A DNA stretch of 64,000 nt, from NCBI RefSeq assembly GCF_000621165.1, contig NZ_KK211218.1, positions 303,196-367,195 of the forward strand. Direction: 5' to 3'. A model generated the notes under the pieces. That model had not been told where the DNA came from. It searched no databases and saw only the letters and a program-made list of their open reading frames with translations. The position numbers and the translations under genes were made by a program. Position 1 is the first letter of the stretch. Every line of letters begins with the position of its first letter. Source of the stretch: Enterovibrio calviensis DSM 14347 (GTDB lineage: Bacteria > Pseudomonadota > Gammaproteobacteria > Enterobacterales > Vibrionaceae). Below are positions 13,649-29,153 of the stretch, piece after piece.

Positions 13649-13652
13649 ATCG

Positions 13653-15233
13653 CTACCTCTTCTCAGGCTCGCCATCAATATGACGAGGAATGGAAAGAGG
13701 GTTGTTGGGGTTAATTTCTGGAGGAAGAAGCGTATTTGGCACGTTCTGATAGCAAACGGGTCTCACAAAGCGCTCGATAGCCATGCTGCCGACGGAGGTT
13801 GTTTGGCTATTTGAGGTAGATGGATAGGGGCCGCCATGTACCATTGCCGTTGAGACTTCTACACCGGTTGGAAAACCATTGAAAAGAATTCTTCCGACTT
13901 TCAGTTCCATTGTATCAATCAACTGCTGTGCGAAGGTTTGGTCGTCACTTTCACTATAGTGAATTGTACCGGTGAGTTGGCCTTCCAGTGATCCCAAGAC
14001 ATCAAGGGCTTCTTGCTCGCTGTTGCACGCCACTAACATTGAGAACGAGCCAAAGACTTCTCTATGCAGTGCGCGATCTTTTATAAAATCAGAGGCTTCT
14101 ACTTCGACAAAGGCGGGTTCACAGGCATTATGACCTTCAGCATGCCCTTGCGTGATAACGCTTACTTCTGGGCTGTTGATCAATGCGCTCTTGTTTTCGC
14201 AGTAAGAGGAAAATATTGAGGGCGTTAGCATTGAGCCTGCACAATTGCCTTCCATGAGTTTGGACATGTGCTGTTTGAAATGAGTCAGCGCCTCACTCTT
14301 GAGCGCAATCACGAGGCCTGGGTTGGTACAGAATTGACCCGCTCCCATCATGAGTGATGCATAAAACTGTTCAGCTAGTGATGCTGTTTGTGCTGCTAGG
14401 GAGGCGGGCATGAATACCACTGGATTGATGCTACTCATTTCTGCATACACAGGGATAGGCTCTTCACGTTGCTGAGCAAGTGACATCAATGCGGTACCAC
14501 CTGATTGCGAACCCGTAAAACCCACCGCTTTTATTTCTGGGTGTGAGACTAAGTGCTGACCAATCTCATTGCCAGAACCAAACACTAATGAAAATGTGCC
14601 CGGATGAAAGTTCAATTCGGCTAATGCATCTACAATACAGCGTCCGACCAACTCAGAGACGCCTGGGTGTGCGGAATGGCCTTTAACGATCACGGGACAG
14701 CCTGCAGCAAGTGCTGACGCGGTATCTCCACCAGCCACAGAAAATGCCAATGGAAAGTTACTTGATCCGAAGATAACAACGGGCCCAAGTGGAATTTTTC
14801 TTACCCCAAGAAACGGCCTAGGAAGCGGATGGCGATCGGGTAGGGCGGTATCTATTCTCACACCTTGCCAACTGCCATCTTGGATGACATCGGCGAATAG
14901 TCGAAGCTGATTGGCTGTTCTGGCGCGTTCGCCTTCAAGTCTTGCTGCTGGCAATCCCGTTTCTTTCATGCCCCTTTCTATCAGTGTGTCACCGAGCGCC
15001 ATGATGTTATCAGCAATAAGACGTAATAAGTCGGCGCGTTGAGAAGCAGAGGTATGACGAAACAACTGAAAGGCTCCCGCGGCTAACACGCAGGCTTTAT
15101 CGGCATCCTCACAGGTCGCCAGCCCGAAAGACGGTTCAAGCTTTTCGTTGGTCTTTGGGTCAAACCCTTGAATGCTTCCATTGGTGCCATGAACTGCGTG
15201 ACCACCAATAAACATATTTCCCTGAACTGACAT
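13653..15233 (-). CDS. 2-oxoglutarate semialdehyde-type aldehyde dehydrogenase (NADP+)
   Basis: This 526-aa enzyme has the segments typical of alpha-ketoglutaric semialdehyde dehydrogenases: LPRPFLGVRKIPLGPVVIFG, SNFPLAFSVAGGDTASALAA, the active-site Glu in YAEMSSINP and the catalytic Cys in MMGAGQFCTNPG. The product would be 2-oxoglutarate, the end point of oxidative pentose/sugar-acid routes. The start at 15233 has AAGGAG 7 nt upstream; an in-frame extension to 15299 overlaps the beta-propeller gene and is rejected. It sits between the propeller gene (17 bp) and the lactonase gene (4 bp). Family confident, exact substrate inferred from neighbours. Confidence 0.85.
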   Translation of the reverse strand: MSVQGNMFIGGHAVHGTNGSIQGFDPKTNEKLEPSFGLATCEDADKACVLAAGAFQLFRHTSASQRADLLRLIADNIMALGDTLIERGMKETGLPAARLEGERARTANQLRLFADVIQDGSWQGVRIDTALPDRHPLPRPFLGVRKIPLGPVVIFGSSNFPLAFSVAGGDTASALAAGCPVIVKGHSAHPGVSELVGRCIVDALAELNFHPGTFSLVFGSGNEIGQHLVSHPEIKAVGFTGSQSGGTALMSLAQQREEPIPVYAEMSSINPVVFMPASLAAQTASLAEQFYASLMMGAGQFCTNPGLVIALKSEALTHFKQHMSKLMEGNCAGSMLTPSIFSSYCENKSALINSPEVSVITQGHAEGHNACEPAFVEVEASDFIKDRALHREVFGSFSMLVACNSEQEALDVLGSLEGQLTGTIHYSESDDQTFAQQLIDTMELKVGRILFNGFPTGVEVSTAMVHGGPYPSTSNSQTTSVGSMAIERFVRPVCYQNVPNTLLPPEINPNNPLSIPRHIDGEPEKR

Positions 15234-15250
15234 TAGTAAACTCCTTAACT

Positions 15251-16186
15251 CTATGAATATGCGGGCAGTAGGAAAGAAACATCTGGCTCTGCTAAGCAAT
15301 CAAAGGTGCGTAAAATATGGGTGTTGTTGACATCCAACACTGCAACTTGATCGTTTGTCATGGAGACATAAGCCGTTGTACCGTCAGGATGAAAACTCAC
15401 TGCAATGGGATCTGCAGGTAGTTCAATCACGCCTTGTGGCATCAACGTTTGATCATAAATAGAGATTGAACCGCCTTGATAATTGGTAACAAACAATTGT
15501 TGATTGGGTGAAAGGTAGACACGGGTAGGGTCTTGGCCTGACTCCGCCGACGCTTTCACCTCTAAAGACGATGTATCAACGGCAACGATGCTGTTGTCTA
15601 GACGGTTCGTGACAAAGAGTGTTTTACCGTCTTGTGCCAGGCAGTTTCCCTCTGGTTTTTTACCCGGATACATTGGTATGGGTTCAACGGTGGGTTCCCA
15701 AGGTCGTATTTTGGTTACCGTATGACTAAGCAAGTTCAGACAAAATGCGGTTTCACCGTCGGCGCTTAATGAAAAAAGGTGCGTCTTAAGTCCGCCAGAA
15801 GGCAATGCACGGTCCGGCGCTGTTGCTGTTTGTGGGTTTTCGTATATCACCATGACGTTGTGCGACTCACTCATGGCATAAAGTCTGTCTTGGTCGTCCA
15901 TGGCAAGGCCATGAATGCGATAGTATGGCCAGGCACTGATGGTGCGAACATGTTCCTTTCGCTTGATGTCGATAACGAAAATATCGCAACCGCCGTTGTC
16001 GCCGATGATCCCCGAATTTTCAACGCCATAATGACCGACGTAGGCGAATTCACGGTTTGAATCTACGACAAATTCATGTGGGTAATTTGGCAGTATGATC
16101 TGCGTGATGGCTTCCCCTTTTTCCGCATCAAAAAAGCCGAGGGTATGAGCACTTTTTTGGTTCAGAATCAGCGTATCCCTATTCAT
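15251..16186 (-). CDS. YVTN-type beta-propeller protein, cytoplasmic
   Basis: This 311-aa protein is made of repeated blades such as FVVDSNREFAYVGHYG, LAQDGKTLFVTNRLDNSIVAV and YLSPNQQLFVTNYQGGSISIYD. It has no signal peptide. The fold is shared by lactonases of the 6-phosphogluconolactonase type and by binding proteins. Inside this operon a second lactonase or an epimerase-like role is plausible but not shown. ATG 16186 is chosen because AAGGA lies 9 nt upstream; the ATG at 16195 abuts AAGGA. It follows the GguC-like gene by 21 bp. Confidence 0.7.
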   Translation of the reverse strand: MNRDTLILNQKSAHTLGFFDAEKGEAITQIILPNYPHEFVVDSNREFAYVGHYGVENSGIIGDNGGCDIFVIDIKRKEHVRTISAWPYYRIHGLAMDDQDRLYAMSESHNVMVIYENPQTATAPDRALPSGGLKTHLFSLSADGETAFCLNLLSHTVTKIRPWEPTVEPIPMYPGKKPEGNCLAQDGKTLFVTNRLDNSIVAVDTSSLEVKASAESGQDPTRVYLSPNQQLFVTNYQGGSISIYDQTLMPQGVIELPADPIAVSFHPDGTTAYVSMTNDQVAVLDVNNTHILRTFDCLAEPDVSFLLPAYS

Positions 16187-16207
16187 TCTTCCCATTCCTT
16201 CGTTGTT

Positions 16208-17218
16208 TTAGCGCAAGGCTGCAATATGGATTGGATGACTAGACGTCTTTGTAGTCATGGTCAGTGTATTACGGAGAGGCTTACCAAACTCCGGCACACA
16301 GATTTCAAATACATCACCGTCTTGTGTTTCGATGCCATCGGCAAAGCTCAAGGTTGATGTGCCGAAATAGTGGATATTCAGATCACCCGGTTGACAGAAA
16401 AGGGCGTATTTAAAGTGGTGGTGCTCTAGGTTCTTAATATTGTGCGACATGTTGTCTTCACCCGAGGTGAAGGGCTTTTCCCATATCACACTGTTGTTTC
16501 GAATAATTTTACTGCTGCCTTCTAATGAAGGAGGCAAGTCACCGATCATGAGTTCGGGGCCAAAACTGGCTTGACGAAGCTTGGAGTGAGCAAGCCACAA
16601 ATAGTTGTGACGTTCGGTGACATGGTCTGAAAATTCATTGCCTATGGCAAAGCCAACCCGATGTGGTGTGCCATTACTGTCATTGACATAAACACCAACC
16701 AACTCAGGCTCTTCTCCCGCATCTTGCGCAAATGCCGGTGATTCAATGGTGCCATAAGGACGACGTATGATATTTCCCGTTCCTTTGTAGAACCATTCTG
16801 GCTGAGAGGCGATGTGCTGTGGGGTGGCTTTTCCATCTTCAAACCCCATTTTAAACATACGCATGGAGTCGGTCAGTGCTGCCTCCTCATCGGCAATTTT
16901 TGCATGCATGGCGTCCCGAGTATCGGCGCTACCTAGATGGGTCAAGCCTGTGCCCGCGACAAAACAATGTGCATTATCAGGATGGTGTATCGGCGGAAGC
17001 AGCAGTCCATCATCAATCACGCTTTGGTAGCTCATCGTATGCTCGGAGAGCAAACTGTCGATCAGCGAGGTCAGCGTCGTCTCTTCGTTTACGGCCATGT
17101 TAACAAGCTCGTAAGTCGTTAATGGCAATGAAAGCGCTTGAAGGCTTTCGCCGTCTAGCACTTTGGCTACACGAGGGCCTGTTGGGCTCTTGTATTGAAT
17201 AATGCGGTAAAATGACAT
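16208..17218 (-). CDS. GguC/AraD1-type fumarylacetoacetate-hydrolase-fold protein
   Basis: This 336-aa protein resembles the GguC (AraD1) branch of the FAH superfamily: FVAGTGLTHLGSADTRDAMH, EWFYKGTGNIIRRP, EEPELVGVYVNDSNG, RVGFAIGNEFSDH with the Glu/Asp metal ligands. Members next to sugar-acid genes are implicated in dehydrating 2-keto-3-deoxy-pentonates to 2-oxoglutarate semialdehyde. That role fits perfectly between the enolase-superfamily dehydratase (upstream) and the semialdehyde dehydrogenase (downstream). The start at 17218 has GAGGGAA upstream; a longer frame to 17281 overlaps the previous gene. Confidence 0.82.
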   Translation of the reverse strand: MSFYRIIQYKSPTGPRVAKVLDGESLQALSLPLTTYELVNMAVNEETTLTSLIDSLLSEHTMSYQSVIDDGLLLPPIHHPDNAHCFVAGTGLTHLGSADTRDAMHAKIADEEAALTDSMRMFKMGFEDGKATPQHIASQPEWFYKGTGNIIRRPYGTIESPAFAQDAGEEPELVGVYVNDSNGTPHRVGFAIGNEFSDHVTERHNYLWLAHSKLRQASFGPELMIGDLPPSLEGSSKIIRNNSVIWEKPFTSGEDNMSHNIKNLEHHHFKYALFCQPGDLNIHYFGTSTLSFADGIETQDGDVFEICVPEFGKPLRNTLTMTTKTSSHPIHIAALR

Positions 17219-17228
17219 GTGTGTTCCC

Positions 17229-18401
17229 TCACTCAATAATGTTGAAGTCATTGAGATATTTATCAGAAATTGAAATACCAAGACCGGGAGTGTTGTCGTC
17301 TAAGTTAATGGAGCCGTTCTGTGGCACTGGCTCGCCTTCAAAGATGTAGTAAAAGAGTTCATTCCCCACTTCTACATCGTGCACTGGGAAGAATTCAGAA
17401 ATCGGTGATGCGAGCGTCGACATGGTGAGATGATAGTTGTGCATTTGACCTGCGTGAGGAATAACGGGAACACTATAAACCTCTGCAAGTGCATTGATTT
17501 TACGCGCTGCGGTAATACCACCGACACGGTTTGTGTCGTACTGAATGACGGACACCGCACGTTTATCGAGAAGTTCTTTGAAGCCGTGACTGGTAAATTC
17601 ATGCTCACCGCCTGAAATAGGTATAGTGGTCAGTCGGTTTAACTCTGCATACCCGTCGATATCATCAGCGATCACTGGTTCTTCTAACCAGCGGGGTTCA
17701 AACTTCTCAAGTTTAGGGAGCATGCGTTTTGCGTATTCTAGGTTCCAGCCCATGTAGCACTCGAGCATAAGATCAACGTCATCCCCAATTACTTCTCTAA
17801 CGGCTTCTACGCTTTTGATGTTTTCTCTCATGCCTTGCGGGCCATCATTAGGGCCATAACCGAAACGCATTTTTAGCATGTTGAACCCCTGATCCAGATA
17901 AGACTGCGCCTCGCGTTGCATCTCATCCAAATCTGTTCGGTAAAGCTTAGAGGCGTAGACGGGGATCGTCTCTTTGGTTCGTCCCCCCAGTAACTTGAAT
18001 ACGGGTTTGCCCGTTGCTTTGCCCATCAAATCCCAAATCGCGATATCCACACCAGATATTGCTGCCATACCAATGCCTTTGCGTCCCCATGCTAATGTGG
18101 ACCGATACATCAATTGCCATAGGTATTCATAGTCAAAGGGGTCGTGACCAATAATGAGCGGGGCAAGGTAGAGATCAATGATCTCTTTTGCTATGCGAGG
18201 TGCAAGGGCGACGTTGCCTATTCCGACCAATCCGGTGTCTGTTTCAATTTCGATGACGGCCCAATCGTGAAATCGAAACGTGCCCATTGAATCCCCTTTA
18301 CTCCAAAGCAGGTCTTTCGCGTTGGAACAAAAATGCTGTGAGGGTGGTACCGTTTTTCCTTTCCATTGGAAAACTCTTGCTTTAACGGATGTGATTTTCA
18401 T
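17229..18401 (-). CDS. Enolase-superfamily sugar-acid dehydratase (mandelate racemase subgroup)
   Basis: This 390-aa enzyme has an N-terminal capping domain with [17 protein letters not shown] and a barrel domain. Candidate catalytic and metal-binding residues are K in [11 protein letters not shown] in [11 protein letters not shown] in [13 protein letters not shown] in [11 protein letters not shown] and H in [12 protein letters not shown]. The pattern resembles rhamnonate-type acid-sugar dehydratases, which abstract the proton alpha to the carboxylate and eliminate water to give a 2-keto-3-deoxy acid. Substrate stereochemistry cannot be read from sequence. Its ATG touches the stop of the pdxA-like gene (TAAATG), so translation is coupled. 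Confidence 0.85.
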
Positions 18402-19439
18402 TTATGCCTCTGTGTTATTTATTGCCAACGTTTCTTTGAAGGCTGATTGAGCCATGACGCAAGCGAGATTGAATGCATTCAGTGTGGCGTTAACGTTGGC
18501 TTGGTTTTTACCGGATATATCAAACGCAGTGCCATGAGCGGGGGTTGTAATTGCAATGGGAAGGCCGCCTTGAACGGTAACGCCTTTTTCGAAACCAAGG
18601 AGCTTTATCGCGATTTGACCTTGGTCGTGATACATGGTGACCACGGCATCAAACTCTCCGTCTCTGACTTTTAAAAAGAGGGTGTCCGCCGGAAAAGGGC
18701 CACTGACCGGGTAATGTTGCTCCTGGAGCGTCTTGACGGCGGGTTGGATGATCTCTATTTCTTCTCTGCCACAAATACCCCCATCACCACCATGCGGATT
18801 GAGTGCTGCAATGGCTATTTTGGGACGGGCTATCCCAGACTGGATAAGGCAATCGTGGATGAGTTTGGTTGCCTCAATGATTCTGTCTTGAGATATGTAT
18901 TGCGTGACATCTTTGAATGGCACGTGTGACGAGATCCGAGAGGTCCAAATATCTCCGAGTGTGTTGAATTCACAGAAGTATTCTTTCACCTCTAGCTGAT
19001 CGGCAAAAAAGTGCAGTTCATCCTCAAAAGGCATCCCTGCCAGCTTCATGGCTTGCTTGTTAAGGGGCGCGAAACAAATGGCATCTATTTCAGAAGCCTT
19101 CGCTGCATCTAGGCACATGGTCAGTACGTTGAGCACTGACGCACCACTTTCTTTATTCGCAACACCTACTTTGTGATCCGTTTCTGTCATCGTGGAGACG
19201 GGAAGGAAACACACGCTACCTACGGGTGTATGTTTTGCCTCCTCAAATGCGTTAATCACCGGAAGGTCATGCATCAATCCTGTCAGTGTCTGTGCATTGC
19301 TCCATAACCACCCATCGCCAACTAAGACGCAATGGCAGTGACGAACACGCTGTTCATTGGCGAGTAGTTTGGCCACCAGTTCAGGACCAATACCAGATGG
19401 ATCCCCCAAAGTGATTGCAACGACGGGTGCGTTTCGCAT
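18402..19439 (-). CDS. PdxA-family NAD-dependent dehydrogenase (PdxA2-like)
   Basis: This 345-aa protein has PdxA hallmarks: ITLGDPSGIGPELVAKLL at the N-terminus, the metal ligands in NPHGGDGG and TMYHDQGQIAIKLLGF, and TPAHGTAFDISGKNQAN. PdxA proper oxidises 4-phosphohydroxy-L-threonine in vitamin B6 synthesis, but PdxA2-type homologues in catabolic operons act on four-carbon sugar-acid phosphates, and TphB acts on a non-phosphorylated diol. As first gene of a sugar-acid operon with no DUF1537 kinase partner, it may be the oxidising enzyme of this pathway. The promoter region has a 19-bp palindrome. Confidence 0.85.
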   Translation of the reverse strand: MRNAPVVAITLGDPSGIGPELVAKLLANEQRVRHCHCVLVGDGWLWSNAQTLTGLMHDLPVINAFEEAKHTPVGSVCFLPVSTMTETDHKVGVANKESGASVLNVLTMCLDAAKASEIDAICFAPLNKQAMKLAGMPFEDELHFFADQLEVKEYFCEFNTLGDIWTSRISSHVPFKDVTQYISQDRIIEATKLIHDCLIQSGIARPKIAIAALNPHGGDGGICGREEIEIIQPAVKTLQEQHYPVSGPFPADTLFLKVRDGEFDAVVTMYHDQGQIAIKLLGFEKGVTVQGGLPIAITTPAHGTAFDISGKNQANVNATLNAFNLACVMAQSAFKETLAINNTEA

Positions 19440-19515: not shown

Positions 19516-19534
19516 TGGTATATAAAGCGTACCA
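19516..19534. promoter_or_regulatory. GntR operator candidate A (leftward operon)
   Basis: TGGTA (19516-19520) and TACCA (19530-19534) with 9 bp between form a 19-bp palindrome of the same size and half-sites as those at 19851 and 27448. It lies 77 bp upstream of the PdxA-like start. Confidence 0.6.
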
Positions 19535-19850: not shown

Positions 19851-19869
19851 TGGTATTGTTAATAGACCA
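19851..19869. promoter_or_regulatory. GntR operator candidate B (rightward operon)
   Basis: TGGTAT (19851-19856), 7 bp, AGACCA (19864-19869): a 19-bp palindrome with one imperfect half-site, 151 bp before the ABC ATPase gene. Confidence 0.55.
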
Positions 19870-20020: not shown

Positions 20021-21127
20021 ATGCCTCAGATTCGAATTCAAAACCTAGTAAAACGCTATGATCATGTCGAAGTCGTTCATGGTCTTGATCTTACCTTTGA
20101 TGACAATGAGTTCACCGTGCTGGTCGGCCCATCTGGCTGTGGTAAATCAACGACGCTGAGAATGATCGCGGGGTTAGAAGACGTGACCTCTGGGGGGATA
20201 TACATTGGTGATCGCGAAGTGAGTTCGTTGGAGCCACGCGATCGCGACCTTGCGATGGTTTTCCAAGATTACGCGTTATACCCCCACATGAATGTTGAGA
20301 AAAACATCTCCTTTGCTTTAAGGCTCGCCAAAGTCAACAAAGAAGACATCGCGAAAAAGGTAAAAGAAGTATCGGAGATGCTTGGACTGGAACATCTTCT
20401 CCATCGTAAACCCGGCGAGCTATCAGGCGGGCAGCGTCAACGCGTTGCGATGGGCAGAGCGCTGGCTCGCGATGCGTCCACATTATTGATGGATGAGCCT
20501 TTATCTAATTTGGATGCCAAACTTCGTGCCCAGATGCGTGCTGAACTGATCCTGATGCGAAAGAAAGTAAACAAAAACATTATCTACGTGACGCATGACC
20601 AAATTGAAGCCATGACATTGGGCGACAGAATAGTCGTCATGAATGATGGATACGTTCAACAGCATGGCACGCCAGAGGAATTGTTTTGTAGACCTATCAA
20701 TAAATTCGTTGCGGGTTTTATGGGGTCGCCATCAATGAACTTCCTTGAGGGAGAACTGATTAACACTGACGGTGAGTACTTTGTTGAAGGGGAGGGTTTT
20801 TCCCTAAAAACCGCTCCGGAATTAGCATCTTCCCTGTCTATTTTGTCGCAGACATCATCTTCTATTCATGTGGGTTTCAGACCATCTGCATTTTCCACTG
20901 AGTCTATTGCTGATTCAAACCCCATTTCATTACCCGTTTTGGTCACAGAATATTGCGGCTCACAGTCGATCATTGTTTCCGAAATTAACGGACAGCGTAT
21001 CTCTATTGAAATTGATTCTGAATTTCTACCCAAACAAGGTGAGAACATTACGTTCTATCTCAAGTATACCGATATCTACCTATTTGATTCTAAAACGGAA
21101 AAAGCAGTTTACTCAAACGCACAGTAA
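20021..21127 (+). CDS. CUT1-type sugar ABC transporter ATPase (MalK/UgpC-like)
   Basis: This 368-aa ATPase powers the importer encoded downstream. Walker A is GPSGCGKSTT, the Q-loop lies in VFQDYALYPHM, the signature is LSGGQRQRVAMGRALAR, Walker B is TLLMDEPLSNLD and the H-loop is YVTHDQIEAM. A C-terminal TOBE/regulatory region (about 240-368) is present as in MalK. It is the first gene of a six-gene rightward operon. The putative operator B lies upstream, facing the divergent sugar-acid operon. Confidence 0.92.
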   Translation: MPQIRIQNLVKRYDHVEVVHGLDLTFDDNEFTVLVGPSGCGKSTTLRMIAGLEDVTSGGIYIGDREVSSLEPRDRDLAMVFQDYALYPHMNVEKNISFALRLAKVNKEDIAKKVKEVSEMLGLEHLLHRKPGELSGGQRQRVAMGRALARDASTLLMDEPLSNLDAKLRAQMRAELILMRKKVNKNIIYVTHDQIEAMTLGDRIVVMNDGYVQQHGTPEELFCRPINKFVAGFMGSPSMNFLEGELINTDGEYFVEGEGFSLKTAPELASSLSILSQTSSSIHVGFRPSAFSTESIADSNPISLPVLVTEYCGSQSIIVSEINGQRISIEIDSEFLPKQGENITFYLKYTDIYLFDSKTEKAVYSNAQ

Positions 21128-21188: not shown

Positions 21189-22535
21189 ATGTTACAGAAT
21201 ATCAATACGTTAAAACGATACACGGCCACGGTGATCGCCACAGTGGGTATGTTGATTTCACCTTTTGCGCTTTCTAACCCTTACAAACCCTATGAAGGTG
21301 AAGTGCTGGTGGTCAATTTCCCCGCGCATCCTCACTATGATGCGGTAATGAAGGTATTGCCAGATTTTGAAAAAGAGACGGGCATTGAGGTAGAAGTTGA
21401 CCAACTTCAATACTTGGCAATGCGTCAAAAGCAAACACTCGAATTAACCAAGCGAAAAGGGGATTACGACTTGATCGCCTATGTGGTTTTTTCCAAAGCG
21501 GATTACGTATCGGCCGATCAAATTGAACCGCTCGCACGTTTTTTCATGAACCCTAAATTGGCAGACCCAAGTTACGACGCTGACGATCTGATTGATGGTT
21601 ACGTACAAAATGTCGGTGTTGCTGGCGGTGCGAAAGGATACTTGCCTGGGCCAACGGGCGCACTATTTGGCATTCCTTTTGGTTCAGAGACGTCAGTGTT
21701 GGGTTACAGAAAAGACATTTTTGACAAGCACGGCATCAAAGTGCCAGAGACCTATGAAGAGCTGCTTGAAACCTCTTGTAAGATCCAAGAGCTAGAGCCA
21801 GACATGGTTGGGCTTGCTTCTCGTGGTAAATCTGGCCACCAAACCTCCCACGCATTTCTTCTTCACCTCGCCCCGTTAGGCGGCAGAGTGTTTGATGAAA
21901 ATTGGCAGCCGACGTTGAACAGTCCGCAGGCAATTCAAGCAGGTAACGCCTTGAAGACCATTTTGGAATGTGGTCCAGAAGGTGGCACCTCGTTTGGTTT
22001 ATCCGAAGCGAAGAATGCATTCCTACAAGGAAAAGCGGCCATGTACCTCGACACAACTGTGGTTGCTGGTGAGGTCGACGACCCTGAGAAATCAAAAGTG
22101 GTGGGTAAAGTGGCATGGGCTAAGCACCCAATGGGGGTGAAGCATGCCTCACAAACCGGTGGCTTTGGCATTGCGATTCCAAAAAACGCGCAAAACAAAG
22201 AAGCAGCATTTTTGTTGATGCAATGGCTTACCTCGAAAGAGACGGATAAGAAAATTGCTCTGGCAGGTGGTAATCCGTCTCGTTTCTCTACTCACCAAGA
22301 TAGCGACGTCATTGCCAAATTCCCGCAAATGGAAATTTTCGGTGAAGCATTAAAAGATGCTGACCCTGATTGGCGTCCAATCATTCCTGTATGGGGACAG
22401 ATAAACACCGAGCTAGGCACGAACTTGTCTAAGGCAATGACTGGCGAAATCACGGTTGAAGAAGCCCTTAACAAGACCAATAAAACGGCGGAGAAAATAA
22501 TGAATAAAGCGGGTTATTACACTTATCAACAGTAA
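21189..22535 (+). CDS. Extracellular sugar-binding protein of the ABC transporter
   Basis: This 448-aa periplasmic solute-binding protein (family 1) has a signal peptide of about 26 residues (MLQNINTLKRYTATVIATVG..., cleavage after ALS/AL). The mature part follows the UgpB/MalE pattern: VLPDFEKETGIEVEV, GIPFGSETSVLGYRKDIFDKHGIKVPETYEEL, GKAAMYLDTT, FGIAIPKNAQNKEAAFLLMQWLTSKE. ATG 21189 is chosen because GGGAGGAG precedes it and the signal peptide starts there; the frame is open much further upstream into the ATPase gene but without a signal. The ligand is unknown; neighbours suggest an oligosaccharide or sugar acid. Confidence 0.9.
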   Translation: MLQNINTLKRYTATVIATVGMLISPFALSNPYKPYEGEVLVVNFPAHPHYDAVMKVLPDFEKETGIEVEVDQLQYLAMRQKQTLELTKRKGDYDLIAYVVFSKADYVSADQIEPLARFFMNPKLADPSYDADDLIDGYVQNVGVAGGAKGYLPGPTGALFGIPFGSETSVLGYRKDIFDKHGIKVPETYEELLETSCKIQELEPDMVGLASRGKSGHQTSHAFLLHLAPLGGRVFDENWQPTLNSPQAIQAGNALKTILECGPEGGTSFGLSEAKNAFLQGKAAMYLDTTVVAGEVDDPEKSKVVGKVAWAKHPMGVKHASQTGGFGIAIPKNAQNKEAAFLLMQWLTSKETDKKIALAGGNPSRFSTHQDSDVIAKFPQMEIFGEALKDADPDWRPIIPVWGQINTELGTNLSKAMTGEITVEEALNKTNKTAEKIMNKAGYYTYQQ

Positions 22536-22569: not shown

Positions 22570-23559
22570 ATGCACAAATGGATGTGGAATATGCGAGACA
22601 AAGTCATGGTTTCCGCCGGTAATAGTGAAGCACCAGATAAAAAGTCATTCCGGCAGGTTTTAAATAAAGCTGCTCCCTATCTTTTCATGGCGCCAGCGGC
22701 AGTTATTTTGATTTTTGCCCTTTTATACCCAATGGCTTACATGATGACGGCGAGCTTCTTCGATTGGAGGCCAAGCCAGCCTTTTTCAGATGCCGAGTTT
22801 GTGGGCTTAAGTAACTATGTTTGGCTACTTGAAGATGAAGGTTTTTTTGAGTCTTTCTTTGTCACCTTCTCTTTCGCTTTTATCGTTGTTGGCATTGAGA
22901 TGGTGCTCGGGGTAGGGCTTGCGTTAATGCTGGAAAGGCCGACAAGAGGCATGTCAATTTATCGAACAATTTTCATTTTACCAATGATGATTGCGCCGAT
23001 TGCTGTGGGTCTCGTTTGGCGGTACATGTACAACCCCCAATTCGGAATTTTCAATAAAATTCTAAATGGATTGGGCATTGATAGCGTGCCATGGTTGTCC
23101 GACCCATCGTGGTCACTCTTCTCAATCATTTTGGCAGATATTTGGCAATGGACTCCTTTTGTCATGATCTTGTCCTTGGCGGCACTTCAATCTCTTTCTA
23201 GCTCGGTTGTTGAAGCTGCCAAACTAGACGGTGCGTCGAACTGGGCACTTATTTGGCACATTAAAATTCCATTGATGCTGCCCGTGCTCATTGTCACCTT
23301 ACTGCTCCGGTTGATCGATGCGTTCAAGGTATTGGAAGTCATCATGATCCTGACCAATGGTGGACCTGGTCTCTCAACTGAAATTCTTGCGTTACGAATC
23401 TTTAAAACGGTGACAGACAGCCAAGAGCTAGGCCTCGCTGCCGCGTTATCAAATATGCTGCTTGCGCTTGTCCTGGTAATTACCGTCGCCATGTTCATGT
23501 TTAACAAGATGCGTGAAACGCGCAGTGCAAAAATCAAAGTCACTGCAGAGCAGTACTGA
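22570..23559 (+). CDS. Sugar ABC transporter permease, MalF/UgpA type
   Basis: This protein of up to 329 aa has six predicted membrane helices and the permease EAA loop EAAKLDGASNWALIWHIKIPLMLPV (about residues 217-241), which docks to the ATPase. The start is uncertain: 22570 is the first ATG, with further in-frame ATGs at 22582, 22591 and 22606, and the only good ribosome site is inside the preceding hairpin. The first helix begins near residue 33, so any of these starts leaves the membrane domain whole. It pairs with the second permease 15 bp downstream. Confidence 0.9.
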   Translation: MHKWMWNMRDKVMVSAGNSEAPDKKSFRQVLNKAAPYLFMAPAAVILIFALLYPMAYMMTASFFDWRPSQPFSDAEFVGLSNYVWLLEDEGFFESFFVTFSFAFIVVGIEMVLGVGLALMLERPTRGMSIYRTIFILPMMIAPIAVGLVWRYMYNPQFGIFNKILNGLGIDSVPWLSDPSWSLFSIILADIWQWTPFVMILSLAALQSLSSSVVEAAKLDGASNWALIWHIKIPLMLPVLIVTLLLRLIDAFKVLEVIMILTNGGPGLSTEILALRIFKTVTDSQELGLAAALSNMLLALVLVITVAMFMFNKMRETRSAKIKVTAEQY

Positions 23560-23574
23560 GGAAGGAGGATAAAC

Positions 23575-24402
23575 ATGAACAAGAAGACTTTGAATACAGC
23601 GCTTTATTACTTGGTACTCGTCTCGCTGATCGTTTTTTCTTTGGGGCCAATTGTATTGATGTTCGTGACGTCTTTTAAGTTGAAAGTCGATATCATGAGC
23701 GATTCGACGGCATGGTTCTTCATGCCGACGCTTCAAAACTATGCGTCCATGCTTGATGACCGCTCGTTGGTCAACAACATTGGTAACTCTCTCTATGTCG
23801 CGATTGTATCAACGGCTATCACTCTGTTTGCTGGTTGTATGGCAGCTTATGCCATTGTGCGTTATCGATTTTTTGGTCGCGATGTGGCGTCGATGACAAC
23901 GTTGATCATGAGAATGGTGCCACCTGCTGTCTTGCTCGTTCCAGTCTTTGGCATTTGGACATTTGACTATGAGATTGATGGCACGCTAAATGGCATTGTT
24001 CTTATCTACAGCGCCATGAACCTTCCTTTTGTTATTTGGATATTACAGAGTTTTATTCAGCAAATTCCTATCCAACTGGAGGAGGCGGCCAGAATGGATG
24101 GGGCGAATCCTTTTCAAGTGTTCTACCACATCATTCTGCCTGTCATACAGCCAGGCCTCGCTGCAGCTTCCATATTTACGTTTCGTATTGCGTGGAATGA
24201 GTTCCTCATTGCAAATGCTATTTCTGACCGAAGTACGAGAACCACACCTGTATATATCGTGAATTCACTGACGGAATATAACATCGATTGGGGGGCAATC
24301 ATGGCCATGGGTGTATTGCTCGCCATACCGCCGATCATATTTACGTTTGTGGCATCGAAACAAATTATTTCAGGGATGACCGCGGGTGCTGTGAAGGGGT
24401 AG
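23575..24402 (+). CDS. Sugar ABC transporter permease, MalG/UgpE type
   Basis: This 275-aa inner-membrane permease has six helices and the EAA motif EEAARMDGANPFQVFYHIILPVIQPGL. It ends with the MalG-like FVASKQIISGMTAGAVKG. AAGGAGGATAAAC before the ATG is a strong ribosome site. It completes the importer (ATPase, binding protein, two permeases). The cytochrome c gene starts three bases after its stop, so the redox genes are translationally linked to the transporter. Confidence 0.93.
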   Translation: MNKKTLNTALYYLVLVSLIVFSLGPIVLMFVTSFKLKVDIMSDSTAWFFMPTLQNYASMLDDRSLVNNIGNSLYVAIVSTAITLFAGCMAAYAIVRYRFFGRDVASMTTLIMRMVPPAVLLVPVFGIWTFDYEIDGTLNGIVLIYSAMNLPFVIWILQSFIQQIPIQLEEAARMDGANPFQVFYHIILPVIQPGLAAASIFTFRIAWNEFLIANAISDRSTRTTPVYIVNSLTEYNIDWGAIMAMGVLLAIPPIIFTFVASKQIISGMTAGAVKG

Positions 24403-24404
24403 AG

Positions 24405-25367
24405 ATGACGTGGTTGTTAAAAAGGTTAGCGATAAAGCGATTATGTCGTTGGCAAAAAAGGCTGATCCTGTCTCTCACCCTTGTTGTCATAATCTGCTTG
24501 TCCGTGGGAGCCATCTTTATTTTCGCACCGCATTGGATATGGCCGAAAACGGGTGATCACTTGAATAGGCTCTCGGCTGATATTAAGAATGGCGAGTATG
24601 TTTTCCATTTATCTGGATGCGCGGCTTGCCATTCAACGGCGGCGAAGAAAGACGCACCGCTGGCTGGCGGAAAACGTATTAGAACACCGTTTGGCATCAT
24701 TATGTCGACGAACATTACACCGGATGATGAATTTGGTATTGGCGGTTGGACGCGAGCGGAATTTGCAGATGCTGTTAGACAGGGAATATCTCCGCAAGGA
24801 GAGCATTATTATCCTGCTTTTCCTTACACATCTTACATAAAGATGAGTGATCAAGACGTTGTTGATGTTCAATCTTACATTGACCAGCGTATTGCGCCAA
24901 TATCAGAGCCTAATAAAAACAAGGCCTTGCCATTTCCGCTGAATATTCGCGCCGGTATTGGTACATGGAAACTGCTATATAACCAACCTGCTTACGTGTC
25001 AGATGTTTCAGCTTATAACGAGATGGAGCAACGTGGTGCGTATTTAGTGGAGGCGTTAGGGCATTGCGGTGAATGCCACACGCCAAGAGATACGCTTGGT
25101 GGGCTTTTGCGCGATCAATGGATGGCAGGAGTGCCTCAAGGAGAGTTTAATCCAGCTCCCAGTTTACTGAATACCGGTGACGCGATGGGTGATTGGACGG
25201 ACGAAGAGTGGCTCGTGTTTCTTCAAACAGGGAGGCTCTCTAATGGAGAGTACACGGGGGGGGAAATGAGCCATGTTATCAAGGAGATTACCTCGCATCT
25301 TATTCAGGACGATGCCGAAGCGATGGTTGCTTATTTTCGAACACTCAATGGTAAGGATAATCGCTAA
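24405..25367 (+). CDS. Membrane-anchored dihaem cytochrome c
   Basis: This 320-aa protein has a basic N-terminus and one membrane helix (about residues 19-40) that anchors two periplasmic cytochrome c domains. The haem motifs are CAACH (72-76) and CGECH (221-225). Each domain resembles those of the cytochrome subunit of membrane alcohol/gluconate dehydrogenases (FGIIMSTNITPDDEFGIGGW, GGEMSHVI), but that subunit normally has three haems. The ATG at 24405 lies 2 bp after the permease stop and GAAGGGG precedes it. It would pass electrons between a periplasmic donor and the respiratory chain. No partner dehydrogenase is in the operon. Confidence 0.85.
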   Translation: MTWLLKRLAIKRLCRWQKRLILSLTLVVIICLSVGAIFIFAPHWIWPKTGDHLNRLSADIKNGEYVFHLSGCAACHSTAAKKDAPLAGGKRIRTPFGIIMSTNITPDDEFGIGGWTRAEFADAVRQGISPQGEHYYPAFPYTSYIKMSDQDVVDVQSYIDQRIAPISEPNKNKALPFPLNIRAGIGTWKLLYNQPAYVSDVSAYNEMEQRGAYLVEALGHCGECHTPRDTLGGLLRDQWMAGVPQGEFNPAPSLLNTGDAMGDWTDEEWLVFLQTGRLSNGEYTGGEMSHVIKEITSHLIQDDAEAMVAYFRTLNGKDNR

Positions 25368-26560
25368 TGCCTGTAGTTTGGTTATTGCTTTTGCTCTTAG
25401 CAACTCCTCATAGTGCAAGTGCTGATGACTATTGCAAAGATTATCAGCATCAACAGACGTTGATAGACAGTGATCTTAGGCTTTGCTGGTCTTTGATCAA
25501 TGACGATACGTTGCGCGTGAAAGCCATTCACCCCTCAAAGGTATGGATTGGCTTAGGCTTTGGTAAATTGATGAGCAATGCGGATGCGATCATCGGTTAC
25601 GCGCACACTAAAGATGTGAAAGACAGTCAGTTAACGGGAAGGCTATTGTCATCAGTCAAGACAGACGCGGAACAAAACATTAAGCGCGCGCAAATTGACG
25701 TAAATGAAAACATGACAGTGTTGGTGTTTGAACGTGCATTAAATACGTCAGATGAGTCTGACGTTGCCATAGACCCGAATGCTGATATTGATATCATTTG
25801 GGCGATAGGGGATGGAGATAGGTTCAGCTTTCATGGTGAATACGGGGCACAGAAACTCAATTTTTCTACAGGAACGCAATACACTCGTGATATTCCATTA
25901 CTGCTGCTTGTTCATGCGTGTTTGATGGTACTGGCGTGGGCTGTGATGTCACCGGTCATTATTACGATTACACGCTATTTTAAAGTGACTCCAGGCCAAG
26001 CATTTCCCAAGAAGTTAGATAATAAATTTTGGTGGATAACACATTGGCTTGGTCACAGTGTGGTCATCGCTATTTCTCTTATCGCCTTTTTGTTTAGTCT
26101 CATTAGTTTGAATGGTTTAGATACATCAACCATTCATACGAAAATTGGGCTGGTGGCCATTTGTCTTTCCTTGATACAAGCCTGTTATGGCTGGGCGAGA
26201 GGCACAAAAGGTGGGCCTGTTGACGATAATGGGAACCCCGTTCCGAGCAATAAAGTATTTGGTGACCATTATAATATGACCATCTACCGGCGCGTGTTCG
26301 AATGGGTACATAAATCATTGGGTTACATCTTATTGGCGGCCAGCCATGTGGCGATTTATAGCGGATTTTTCTTGTTTGAGCTTGGAGCTTGGGCATATGT
26401 CGCGATGCTTGTTTCTGAACTGGTTATGTTCGCCTTCTACCTGTTCTTCAGCCTTCAGCATCGCTGGATTGATACCTATCACGCGATTTGGGGGTTTAGT
26501 CGACGTCACCCGGGGAACAAGTACAGTAAAAGCCCGTATAAGGATATCGATCACAAATAG
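25367..26560 (+). CDS. DOMON domain-cytochrome b561 fusion
   Basis: This 397-aa protein has a signal peptide (residues 1-19), a periplasmic DOMON domain (about 20-170) and a multi-helix cytochrome b561 domain (about 175-370). In DOMON, M69 (GKLMSNADAIIGY) and H156 (RFSFHGEYG) sit where cytochrome domains of cellobiose dehydrogenase carry their Met/His haem b ligands. H183, H226/H230, H257 and H315/H327 are placed for transmembrane haems. The architecture is known mainly from eukaryotic redox proteins that move electrons across membranes. The start overlaps the cytochrome c stop (TAATG). It is the last gene of the transport operon. Haem ligation is inferred from position. Confidence 0.82.
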   Translation: MPVVWLLLLLLATPHSASADDYCKDYQHQQTLIDSDLRLCWSLINDDTLRVKAIHPSKVWIGLGFGKLMSNADAIIGYAHTKDVKDSQLTGRLLSSVKTDAEQNIKRAQIDVNENMTVLVFERALNTSDESDVAIDPNADIDIIWAIGDGDRFSFHGEYGAQKLNFSTGTQYTRDIPLLLLVHACLMVLAWAVMSPVIITITRYFKVTPGQAFPKKLDNKFWWITHWLGHSVVIAISLIAFLFSLISLNGLDTSTIHTKIGLVAICLSLIQACYGWARGTKGGPVDDNGNPVPSNKVFGDHYNMTIYRRVFEWVHKSLGYILLAASHVAIYSGFFLFELGAWAYVAMLVSELVMFAFYLFFSLQHRWIDTYHAIWGFSRRHPGNKYSKSPYKDIDHK

Positions 26561-26644: not shown

Positions 26645-27388
26645 TTAACCAAAACCATTTCTGTTTTTCATGGCAATTAATGTCGTGTCATAAACGCTAT
26701 TGAGATGGTTAATCATCATCTCTTCTGCCCTGTCAGGATCTCTATTTTCAAGCGCGCGAAAGATCATCATGTGTTCTCGATAGCTTTTTTCGATGCTGCC
26801 TTCCACCGACAGAACAACCCGCCTGAACTGAAGTCCATATGAGTAGAGTTCTTGAACATACTTGTTCAGGAGCTCATTAGGGACGCACTCTGCGATAATT
26901 CGATGGAATTGTTTGTCTGACAGTTGGAAATGTACTGGCTGGTCGAAGAGCTTCTCTTGCTGCTCTAGAAGGACGCGAAGTGCTTTTATTCCGCTAGCAT
27001 CGATGTTCAGTGTCGCTTTTCTAACAACGGCGCGCTCAATGATTTTTCGCGTTTCAAAGACGGTATCAATATTGTAATTATTTACTTCTAAATCAGAAAG
27101 GCTAGGGAGAAGACTCTGGCAAGTTTGAAGTAACTCAGGGCTTCGGTTGATCGTTGTCTTTGCACCGTGGGAAATATTAAGCAGGCCAAATTCAGAAATG
27201 ACCCCCAATGAACCTCGGACTGTTTCTCTACTAACGCTAAACGTATTGGCTAGCTCTCTTTCACTGGGTAACACATCGCCATCCCTCAGCAGCCCCGTAA
27301 AGATCATCTCTAATATTTTTTCTGCGAGCACTTCCTTTTTTGTTTTGTTTTTCAGTACGTTCTCATCACCAAATAATGGTATCGGCAT
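26645..27388 (-). CDS. GntR-family regulator, FadR subfamily
   Basis: This 247-aa regulator has an N-terminal winged helix (about 14-80, DVLPSERELANTFSVSRETVRGSL) and an all-helical FCD effector domain with the metal/ligand pattern D/H in FETRKIIERAVV, FHRIIAECVPN and EHMMIFRALENRDPDRAEEMM. FCD regulators typically sense sugar acids or other small carboxylates, which fits the neighbouring operons. It is convergent with the DOMON-b561 gene. Upstream lies a perfect TGGTAT-N7-ATACCA palindrome that recurs before both catabolic operons, so it is the probable local regulator, acting also on itself. Confidence 0.88.
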   Translation of the reverse strand: MPIPLFGDENVLKNKTKKEVLAEKILEMIFTGLLRDGDVLPSERELANTFSVSRETVRGSLGVISEFGLLNISHGAKTTINRSPELLQTCQSLLPSLSDLEVNNYNIDTVFETRKIIERAVVRKATLNIDASGIKALRVLLEQQEKLFDQPVHFQLSDKQFHRIIAECVPNELLNKYVQELYSYGLQFRRVVLSVEGSIEKSYREHMMIFRALENRDPDRAEEMMINHLNSVYDTTLIAMKNRNGFG

Positions 27389-27447: not shown

Positions 27448-27466
27448 TGGTATCTAAACCATACCA
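27448..27466. promoter_or_regulatory. GntR operator candidate C (autoregulation)
   Basis: TGGTAT (27448-27453), CTAAACC, ATACCA (27461-27466): a perfect 6+6 palindrome of 19 bp, 60 bp before the GntR gene start. It is the best of the three related sites. Confidence 0.65.
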
Positions 27467-27794: not shown

Positions 27795-29153
27795 TTACTT
27801 AGGGGAACAAGCATCGAGCAGTGACCATGGGGAGTTTTCATATAATCCAGGGATCTGCTGCATTGTCCACCAAGCGGCTTGGTATTGCTTACCCATATAT
27901 GTGACGCCGTCACCTTTCTGATAAGCTTTATGGGCATCCCACTCTGAAGTAGCGCATAGAGTGAGGGGTTCAGGTTCTTCCATCCAATCAACTAGCTGTT
28001 TATGGCTAACAAATCTTACGGCTGGTTTGGACAAGGCATAGGCTGTAAATTCTTCAAGAACACGTCGCCTTGATTCGACAGTAGACTCTGGCATGCCAAA
28101 GTGTTCAGCACCGTTCTGATATCCGTAAAACCCTGAATGTAAACCGAGTACTAATGGCGATTTGTTTCCACTTAATCTCAGGTCGAGGTTATATTTGTAT
28201 ATCGCTAACACATCATGTTCATTCAAGCCGGCAGCTCCCCATGCTGGCTCAAAGTATAAATTCCAATCGAAATTATCCCCTTTGCCTGATACCGCATCAA
28301 ACCACGGAACACGTGATGAGATTTTGTCTCGCAATGAATAAGCTAATCCATAGCGATCCATTTCACTGTCGGGCGGCACAATTAAGGTATGTAGTGGGAT
28401 TTCCCAAAGGTTGGGGTAGGTTGAGAGCGGGGGCTTCCAACCACCATTCACACCAATATCATGTTCTGGGCTGCCATTATGCAGGGTATGGGGCCAGAAA
28501 TTGTTGGTGCCGTCGTGTTCTGGTGTGTTTCCAGCCGGCAGGCTCACATCGTATTGAATGTTATTGGCAGAAAGCGCAGCAAACGTATTGTCGTTATAGG
28601 TTAGAAAGGGTGCGCGATAACCATTGACGTTTGCGATGCCTACACCACCTTGTGCTTCAGGCATCATCAATAACTCATTACATAATGCGATTTCCTGTTG
28701 CCATTGATCCGCTGTCATCCAGCTATCCAATGGATTCCAGTTAACCTTATCATCTGGGTGCGTTTCGGTGTGATTACCAATGTCATGACCTTCCGCATTT
28801 GCCTGTCGCCATTTTTGCAGGATTTCTTCATTCCCTCTCGCTGGCCCACAGTGCATGAAGAAACTTGCTTTCAGTGACGCATTAGCAAAGGAATCTGCAC
28901 CGTCTGGGTTTTTGTTTTTTTTGAGCAATTGAAGAACCCAAGACAGGCCATCTTCATCGAGGTTGTCATCAAAGCCTAGACTGACAAGCATCGGTGTTAC
29001 ATGAACAGGAATGGGGGAGTGTTGCTGTGGAGCCACGCTTATTTCTCCAGAGTAGGAAGGTAGTGAGAGGAGCAATATAGATGGCGTGATAATGGCATTT
29101 TTCCAAAACGATTGTGTCAGGCGATGCCCTTTCTGCCGTAGAAATGTATTCAT
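27795..29153 (-). CDS. Polysaccharide deacetylase with C-terminal chitin-binding-like module, exported
   Basis: This 452-aa protein has a signal peptide within the first about 36 residues, a NodB-fold domain and a C-terminal module. Catalytic motif 1 is GFDDN (D62, D63), motif 2 is the metal site GNHTETH (H128, H132) and motif 3 is YRAPF. The tail (about 400-452, EWDAHKAYQKGDGVTYMGKQYQA with ASW-like WW) resembles CBM5/12 chitin-binding modules. It probably removes N-acetyl groups from chitin or a related polysaccharide outside the cytoplasm. It differs from the vibrio chitin-oligosaccharide deacetylases with TFDDGP. AAGG precedes the ATG. It is monocistronic with a terminator. Confidence 0.85.
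   Translation of the reverse strand: MNTFLRQKGHRLTQSFWKNAIITPSILLLSLPSYSGEISVAPQQHSPIPVHVTPMLVSLGFDDNLDEDGLSWVLQLLKKNKNPDGADSFANASLKASFFMHCGPARGNEEILQKWRQANAEGHDIGNHTETHPDDKVNWNPLDSWMTADQWQQEIALCNELLMMPEAQGGVGIANVNGYRAPFLTYNDNTFAALSANNIQYDVSLPAGNTPEHDGTNNFWPHTLHNGSPEHDIGVNGGWKPPLSTYPNLWEIPLHTLIVPPDSEMDRYGLAYSLRDKISSRVPWFDAVSGKGDNFDWNLYFEPAWGAAGLNEHDVLAIYKYNLDLRLSGNKSPLVLGLHSGFYGYQNGAEHFGMPESTVESRRRVLEEFTAYALSKPAVRFVSHKQLVDWMEEPEPLTLCATSEWDAHKAYQKGDGVTYMGKQYQAAWWTMQQIPGLYENSPWSLLDACSPK

Follow-up and report, generated by a model that had tools for sequence, protein, structure and literature searches.

The aerobic breakdown of L-ascorbate in Ralstonia eutropha H16, as described by Stack and colleagues in 2020, reportedly begins with a cytochrome b561 that oxidises L-ascorbate and an enzyme of the gluconolactonase family that opens the ring. 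The later steps are said to be a rearrangement by a WD40-like protein, hydrolysis by an amidohydrolase and decarboxylation by a PdxA-family enzyme to L-lyxonate, which is then converted to alpha-ketoglutarate. Stack et al. 2020 (doi 10.1021/jacs.9b09863) is cited in PMC11066805, PMC10444878, PMC7873064 and PMC12642758 (reference list). According to PMC7873064, R. eutropha can live on ascorbate as its only carbon source through a novel pathway; PMC10444878 states that a marine bacterium was given ascorbate because it has a nearly complete ascorbate pathway that needs a COG4948 enzyme, and that ascorbate enhanced its growth. The plant CYBDOM protein HYP1 is described as an ascorbate-dependent metalloreductase and is modelled with cytosolic ascorbate and with its DOMON domain outside (PMC10784544). 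Here we analyzed a 64,000-nucleotide stretch of Enterovibrio calviensis DSM 14347 (contig NZ_KK211218.1, positions 303,196 to 367,195; hereafter the window), in which genes for a dihaem cytochrome c and for a fusion of a DOMON domain with a cytochrome b561 are built into an operon for an ATP-binding cassette (ABC) transporter. We consider it rather probable that this is an aerobic L-ascorbate catabolic locus in which b561 oxidises ascorbate in the cytoplasm and the electrons pass via the DOMON haem and the cytochrome c to respiration.

The gene for ABC permease 2 (MalG-type; 23575-24402, + strand) is followed after a 2-bp gap by that for the membrane-anchored dihaem cytochrome c (24405-25367, +), which overlaps the DOMON-b561 gene (25367-26560, +) by 1 nt (TAATG). 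These open reading frame (ORF) coordinates agree with the first-pass annotation, which had placed the two cytochrome genes behind permease 2 with the same spacings, and the three genes are one translational unit. In the fusion protein, Pfam DOMON matches residues 34-148 (25466-25810, +) with 59.2 bits; the candidate haem ligands M69 and H156, the latter just beyond the Pfam match, are invariant in 7/7 DOMON-b561 homologues. The C-terminal half, with a b561 membrane core at residues 176-363 (25892-26455, +), scored 18 bits with the eukaryotic model Pfam Cytochrom_B561, under the cut-off of 23, which five of eight plain bacterial relatives pass and three fail. Its candidate haem histidines H183, H226, H257 and H315, paired as H183/H257 and H226/H315 by analogy with HYP1, are invariant in alignments of 11 rows and of 9 rows, and its identity to plain bacterial b561 is 28-35%. 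The fusion protein gave a single match in its own genome. Hydropathy analysis indicated a signal-like first segment and five membrane helices. Given that 5, 6 and 7 basic residues lie in the predicted inner stretches and none in the two short outer loops, and that the DOMON stretch carries 25 acidic residues against 16 basic ones, the DOMON domain is predicted from hydropathy and the positive-inside rule to lie outside the cell membrane. The protein therefore shows the hallmarks of a CYBDOM protein, namely a DOMON domain N-terminal to b561 (topology by hydropathy) and a conserved Met/His pair whose haem binding is putative.

The cytochrome c has 320 amino acids (aa), a single N-terminal hydrophobic segment (residues 21-39) and two CxxCH motifs, CAACH at residues 72-76 (24618-24632, +) and CGECH at residues 221-225 (25065-25079, +); two such motifs were found in 0 of 20000 shuffles of the protein. 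It matches Pfam Cytochrom_C with 39 bits, and over residues 59-317 it aligns (E 9.9e-53) with positions 39-296 of 7w2j_C, the cytochrome subunit of fructose dehydrogenase.

The rest of the transporter consists of a UgpC/MalK-type ABC ATPase (20021-21127, +), a sugar-type solute-binding protein of a b561-linked subfamily (21195-22535, +; Pfam SBP_bac_1), which we take to belong to class CUT1, and ABC permease 1 (22570-23559, +). The enzyme operon is divergent and lies on the − strand. It encodes an SMP-30/gluconolactonase family protein (12743-13678; Pfam SGL 145 bits), proposed as a dehydroascorbate lactonase; an aldehyde dehydrogenase (13653-15236), proposed as an alpha-ketoglutarate semialdehyde (alpha-KGSA) dehydrogenase, whose top NCBIfam matches are to 2,5-dioxovalerate / alpha-KGSA dehydrogenase with scores far under the curated cut-offs; and a YncE-type beta-propeller (15251-16195; Pfam Lactonase/YNCE barely over cut-offs), proposed as the enzyme of the benzilic acid rearrangement in ascorbate catabolism. 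These are joined by GguC of the AraD1 family (16208-17227; NCBIfam GguC 486.9 bits, cut-off 340), a putative 2-keto-3-deoxy-L-lyxonate dehydratase; an enolase-superfamily acid-sugar dehydratase (17229-18401; Pfam MR_MLE_N/C), a putative L-lyxonate dehydratase (COG4948, mentioned above, is likewise an enolase family); and a PdxA2-type protein (18402-19439; Pfam PdxA 300 bits), a putative 2-carboxy-L-lyxonate decarboxylase. Except for the amidohydrolase, each step of the pathway outlined above has a family match in the window, including b561 (four invariant histidines; Pfam below cut-off), the SGL lactonase, the YncE-like propeller and PdxA, all with predicted activities. Because these enzymes are homologous to those of that pathway, the transported 'sugar' is most likely L-ascorbate. 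The first-pass annotation had assumed a saccharide, and ascorbate is probably carried instead. It had also pointed out that the operon has no gene for a dehydrogenase or lytic polysaccharide monooxygenase (LPMO) as partner; no such gene need be missing, because b561, reportedly the oxidising enzyme of the ascorbate pathway, would itself oxidise ascorbate.

In the chain that we propose, the ABC transporter would import ascorbate, and the b561 part of the fusion would take electrons from it at the cytoplasmic face, yielding dehydroascorbate. SMP-30 would open dehydroascorbate to 2,3-diketogulonate, the YncE-type propeller and PdxA2 would convert this to L-lyxonate, and the enolase-family dehydratase, GguC and the aldehyde dehydrogenase would lead on to alpha-ketoglutarate. 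The electrons would cross the membrane through the b561 haems at H226/H315 and then H183/H257 to the DOMON haem at M69/H156, and would pass from there to the dihaem cytochrome c, which would hand them to an oxidase or quinone of the respiratory chain. Gene content and order, conservation, the operators and the conserved ligand candidates are observations, whereas ascorbate as substrate, the site at which it is oxidised, the way the electrons flow and a contact of DOMON with cytochrome c are what we infer from them and from the homology to the known pathway.

We also searched 150 genomes of the family. Cytochrome c, fusion, permease 2 and GntR gene occur together in 7/150, own genome included, and the carriers of DOMON-b561 are five Enterovibrio (own included; genome handles G000, G041, G051, G059, G067) and two Veronia (G006, G016). 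The binding protein at E 1e-60 has the identical seven carriers, and the gene order permease, cytochrome c, fusion, GntR is constant in 7/7. Five of the six other carriers have the enolase/GguC operon alongside, for two of them within the limits of the sequence fetched, and the contig of the sixth, V. pacifica, breaks off within the transporter genes. The check that the first-pass annotation proposed, whether the cytochrome pair accompanies both this transporter and the enolase/GguC operon, thus speaks for it within the family, and its idea of an oxidation step tied to uptake is also upheld. In V. nyctiphanis, pdxA2 (locus L010, 3047-4049; also L015, 15655-16657) is broken into pieces in different frames in the assembly, by either decay or sequencing error. 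The GntR gene of V. nyctiphanis consists of two overlapping out-of-frame pieces, and a second binding-protein gene, 64% identical to that of the window, lies between its GntR gene and pheS (L010, 13286-14620).

At the order level, the own genome was the sole match among 394 genomes, and the draw was evidently without the other six carriers, since only the own genome matched. A class-level search (369 genomes) gave two further matches, to the b561 half only. No DOMON-b561 fusion was met outside Enterovibrio and Veronia in the family, order, class and phylum genomes searched, and a search of 72,556 plasmid records with the DOMON half alone gave nothing at E 0.01. The Pfam DOMON cut-off was passed by the own genome only among 151 class genomes, two others being weak and below it. 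A bacterial CYBDOM is not named in the titles and abstract openings listed from the DOMON, b561 and CYBDOM literature, in which subscription papers are mostly uncovered; in the accessible part of PMC11570789, CYBDOM occurs in a reference only, and the portions of the literature covered for Enterovibrio with ascorbate turned up only work on Vibrio pathogenicity. What is new here is the DOMON fusion with its cytochrome c, met only in Enterovibrio and Veronia among the genomes searched. The first-pass annotation had called the whole module possibly undescribed; this can hold only for the fusion and the cytochrome c and falls for a plain b561 beside a like transporter and enzymes, because plain b561 adjoins such genes in other Proteobacteria.

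The b561 half matches 10 of the 72,556 plasmid records, none of them across the DOMON half. Nine of the ten matches are annotated as 'cytochrome b561 domain-containing protein', and that of Polaromonas is unannotated and apparently broken. Around these ten relatives, SMP-30 is found in 8/10, YncE in 5/10 and PdxA in 5/10, where the Polaromonas neighbour genes come from our own matches, in pieces, and the P. graminis PdxA from a separate search; SMP-30 is absent from the two loci of lowest similarity (about 29%). On the Sphingomonas plasmid, b561 is accompanied by AraD1/GguC, an L-rhamnonate-type dehydratase, PdxA, YncE and SMP-30, which is the window enzyme operon minus the aldehyde dehydrogenase. 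The enolases that belong to the b561-bearing cassettes L031, L032, L034 and L051 share 71-76% identity with that of the window. GguC of the window and Sphingomonas stands in place of the dihydrodipicolinate synthase (DHDPS)-family enzyme of L032, L034, L042, L043, L045, L046, L048 and L051. Whole genomes yielded plain b561 in G560 and G802 (class, 3/369 including own) and in G1051 and G913 (phylum, 3/398 including own), and the window DOMON half has no match at these four loci. In G1051, b561 is surrounded by YncE, SMP-30, PdxA, a dehydratase, a DHDPS-family gene and the transporter. In G560 and G802, the transporter (57-70% identity) is directly followed by b561, without DOMON, cytochrome c or matches to YncE or PdxA, and in G913, where genes for a MalK-type ATPase and a GntR-type protein are nearby, there is no match to SMP-30, YncE, PdxA or the dehydratase. 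Searched on their own, the 13 best-ranked YncE plasmid records include all 11 best-ranked PdxA2 records.

Other YncE neighbourhoods were also seen. Cassettes of YncE, PdxA, dehydratase and DHDPS-family genes occur without a b561 match on Paraburkholderia/Burkholderia replicons (L042, L045, L046, L048), three of which (L045, L046, L048) have an ORF that resembles, by eye, a major facilitator superfamily transporter. On a plasmid of Cupriavidus sp. P-10 (L041, 6679-9930), SMP-30, cytochrome c and YncE are consecutive. By eye, the SMP-30 and YncE proteins begin with signal-like stretches, and nothing in the 19 kb matches PdxA, enolase or b561; this cluster may carry out the first ascorbate steps in the periplasm.

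The binding protein matched 531 plasmid records at E 1e-20; among the best 25 of these, five have 50-68% identity and the other 20 at most 31.9%. In all five of the records with at least 50% identity among these best 25, b561 adjoins the ABC genes. The neighbours of this subfamily are of two kinds, PdxA/YncE (window, Variovorax, G1051) and L-idonate-dehydrogenase type (Ensifer, Thalassococcus, G560). Given these two kinds of neighbour for one transporter subfamily, the subfamily probably carries a compound common to two routes. The same transporter with b561 was also observed in other lineages (L028, L029, L030, L039, L040), where neither the annotation nor our matches placed YncE or PdxA nearby. 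At L028, L029 and L039, genes of an L-idonate-type dehydrogenase or keto-acid reductase accompany it, and perhaps a second ascorbate route runs there via idonate and gluconate.

Next, we aligned the interval of 0.58-0.61 kb between pdxA2 and malK from six loci and found two conserved blocks, each TGGT-N11-ACCA, which we treat as operators. Operator 1 (19516-19534) lies on the side of the enzyme operon and operator 2 (19851-19869) on that of the transporter operon, both in 6/6 intergenic regions compared, and operator 3 (27448-27466) lies 60 bp upstream of the gene for a GntR/FCD regulator (26645-27388, −), the proposed binder of all three. The GntR gene is present in 7/7 carriers, always with an operator copy upstream, whose distance is about 330 bp in V. 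pacifica and about 60-90 bp in the other six. Since copies precede the enzyme operon, the transporter operon and the GntR gene, it is very likely that enzymes, transporter with cytochromes, and regulator are under one control in the Enterovibrio and Veronia loci. With a GTT tail, the operator has two matches in the window, where shuffles gave 0.00 on average, and genome-wide it has six matches against six for a reversed control pattern; the motif alone is therefore not specific. Without the tail, the 19-base operator has five copies in the window, of which those at 32147 and 42044 fall within coding sequence, and relatives have a few more such coding copies. A scan for FadR-type motifs gave nothing consistent across the six loci.

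A tree of b561 cores with 16 rows, G041 excluded, supports the six-row fusion clade at 100/99, on a long stem of 1.21 and with no sister resolved. For the binding protein, a 14-row tree without G041 and V. pacifica groups the matching rows, together with the second V. nyctiphanis protein, at 91/98 on a stem of 0.19. The long b561 stem beside the shorter binding-protein stem suggests that fast change after fusion, or replacement of b561, is possible. We also considered a recent transfer of the fusion from a eukaryote, judging it from structure-profile and alignment matches, as the trees held bacterial rows. Such a transfer looks unlikely: no solved structure, eukaryotic b561 included, matched our profiles A4 or A1 at E 0.1, yet plain bacterial b561 aligns at the identities given above.

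Cytoplasmic oxidation and outward flow, from cytoplasmic ascorbate through b561 and the DOMON haem to the cytochrome c, are the directions that the residue pattern would favour. Of 41 invariant b561 columns (9 rows), 34 fall in predicted cytoplasmic stretches (114 residues), 6 in the membrane (95) and 1 in periplasmic stretches (17). The borders drawn between segments are rough, which makes H226 and H315 count as cytoplasmic; the periplasmic stretches are short. This crowding on the cytoplasmic side argues for ascorbate oxidation there, and outward flow is suggested because R308 is kept and the haem-ligand plan follows HYP1. R308 stands 7 residues before H315, the same spacing as R152 before H159 in Dcytb, where we take H159 and H86 as the histidine positions from which residue spacing is counted. 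K79 (77), K83 (81) and R152 (150) form the cytoplasmic ascorbate site of Dcytb and, in brackets, AtCytb561 (PMC6123691).

Several observations weigh against this assignment. K79 and K83 of Dcytb have no counterpart at matching spacing from the helix histidine, and K220, the nearest lysine, is invariant in the seven fusions but is not kept throughout the remaining bacterial rows. Which Met is the axial ligand of haem c 1 is uncertain: where the FdhSC motif YPAMPY has a Met, which we take to be a haem ligand, this protein has Phe, as does 8gy3_A. M147 of the cytochrome c is invariant and is an alternative candidate, so haem c 1 may have a shifted Met ligand. The operon contains no amidohydrolase gene, although the pathway outlined above has one. 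PF04909 occurs at four places in the own genome, three of them over cut-off, and just one (L060) matched the amidohydrolases that adjoin YncE in Burkholderia-type cassettes, at about 25% identity. In those cassettes, an ORF reading 'DAHHHLW' follows YncE in L042 and L046 (Amidohydro_2 is shown for L042), and the ORFs at that position in L045 and L048 are equally good matches to that own-genome locus. Two of the ten b561 plasmid loci, and G913, lack SMP-30, YncE and PdxA nearby; six YncE loci (L041, L042, L043, L045, L046, L048) have no b561 match in the roughly 19 kb read; and the YncE locus of Streptomyces (L044) has unrelated neighbours.

Other readings were weighed as well. The same pathway could start in the periplasm, where the cytochrome c and/or DOMON would take the electrons, b561 would pass them inward to ubiquinone and the transporter would import neutral dehydroascorbate. 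A sugar-type ABC transporter generally suits a neutral lactone better than an anion, and the Cupriavidus sp. P-10 cluster makes periplasmic oxidation by a cytochrome c plausible there; however, the conserved b561 residues lie mainly on the predicted cytoplasmic side, the window SMP-30 and YncE-type propeller have no signal peptide evident by eye, and a cytochrome c alone could presumably feed an oxidase without b561. We regard a periplasmic start as unlikely, with a small but real chance. It is improbable that the same enzyme set acts on another enediol, lactone or aldonic acid, such as erythorbate or a keto-aldonate. The transporter/b561 module does occur with L-idonate-dehydrogenase-type genes and without YncE or PdxA matches, but YncE, PdxA2 and dehydratase together are taken as marks of the ascorbate route, and a start from ascorbate could feed both routes via 2,3-diketogulonate.

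Two further readings were considered. That the cytochrome c serves as acceptor for a separate periplasmic sugar or alcohol dehydrogenase is suggested by its best solved relatives, which are dehydrogenase cytochrome subunits, and by a GMC protein encoded at G000:C4, about 151090-153210 (L078, 7093-9205), that could use this cytochrome c. Ahead of that gene stands an ORF of 177 aa whose start is twin-arginine-like and which has no Pfam match; the 16 kb of surrounding sequence that was fetched showed no CxxCH coding pattern. The window genes read, between 12.7 and 27.4 kb, include no dehydrogenase of GMC type or pyrroloquinoline quinone (PQQ) type; moreover, the cytochrome c lacks the third haem domain of FdhSC-type subunits and is translationally tied to the transporter and b561, within their regulon, so that we hold this role to be quite improbable. 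Still less credit goes to a reductive role, in which the chain would draw on ascorbate or quinol to reduce extracellular LPMOs or ferric iron, and which we judge very improbable. Two LPMO_10 genes are present in the genome, and HYP1 reduces iron (PMC10784544). Against this, the LPMO genes are on other contigs, as are the GMC matches, so that neither a fused GMC flavodomain nor a neighbouring LPMO, as expected of a cellobiose-dehydrogenase-type LPMO donor, goes with the DOMON cytochrome; the operon and its operators tie the cytochrome pair to catabolic enzymes; and the plain b561 relatives have the same catabolic link.

Beside the locus, the window encodes a polysaccharide deacetylase with a chitin-binding module (27795-29153), which was matched only in E. 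norvegicus (70% identity) when the relatives' stretches were compared. Farther along, it encodes a lipoxygenase-family protein (47424-49589; Pfam 74.9 bits), a family that is, to our knowledge, uncommon in bacteria.

If cytoplasmic oxidation with outward flow is true, then vitamin C breakdown would feed respiration via a transmembrane wire, and a bacterial CYBDOM-like protein gains a likely electron donor and a likely acceptor whose gene lies alongside. The electron path of bacterial ascorbate breakdown becomes testable, with the plain-b561 version of the transporter operon as the natural comparison, and the locus points to a vitamin C transporter subfamily and regulon in marine Vibrionaceae.

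With the cytochrome subunits of fructose and alcohol dehydrogenases (7w2j_C, 8gy2_B, 8gy3_A), the window cytochrome c shares two haem c domains. In contrast to these, it has two CxxCH motifs only and lacks the third domain (we take FdhSC-type subunits to have three), carries an N-terminal anchor and has no flavoprotein or PQQ partner gene nearby. With the R. eutropha H16 pathway, the locus has in common b561, the gluconolactonase family, a WD40/YncE-like propeller, a PdxA-family decarboxylase and the L-lyxonate route, whereas the DOMON domain fused to b561, the additional dihaem cytochrome c and the operon without amidohydrolase set it apart. Plant CYBDOM proteins (HYP1, PMC10784544; also CRR, PMC10784552) have an N-terminal outside DOMON domain on a b561 core, as predicted for the window fusion. 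The haem pairs of HYP1 are M90/H174 in DOMON and H211/H278 and H245/H314 in b561 (PMC10784544), and M69/H156, H183/H257 and H226/H315 of the window protein follow this Met/His and four-His plan. The agreement with M90/H174 and the conservation of M69 and H156 favour a haem at these two residues, as the first-pass annotation had supposed. The link to ascorbate, proposed for the window protein, would also be shared with HYP1. Tentatively, and as something we would not yet bet on, the bacterial CYBDOM may work outward like the plant ones with the cytochrome c as dedicated acceptor, the DOMON fusion and the cytochrome c having arisen together as an upgrade of a plain b561. Unlike the plant proteins, the window protein is bacterial and stands in a catabolic operon, and its proposed acceptor is a cytochrome c and not ferric iron.

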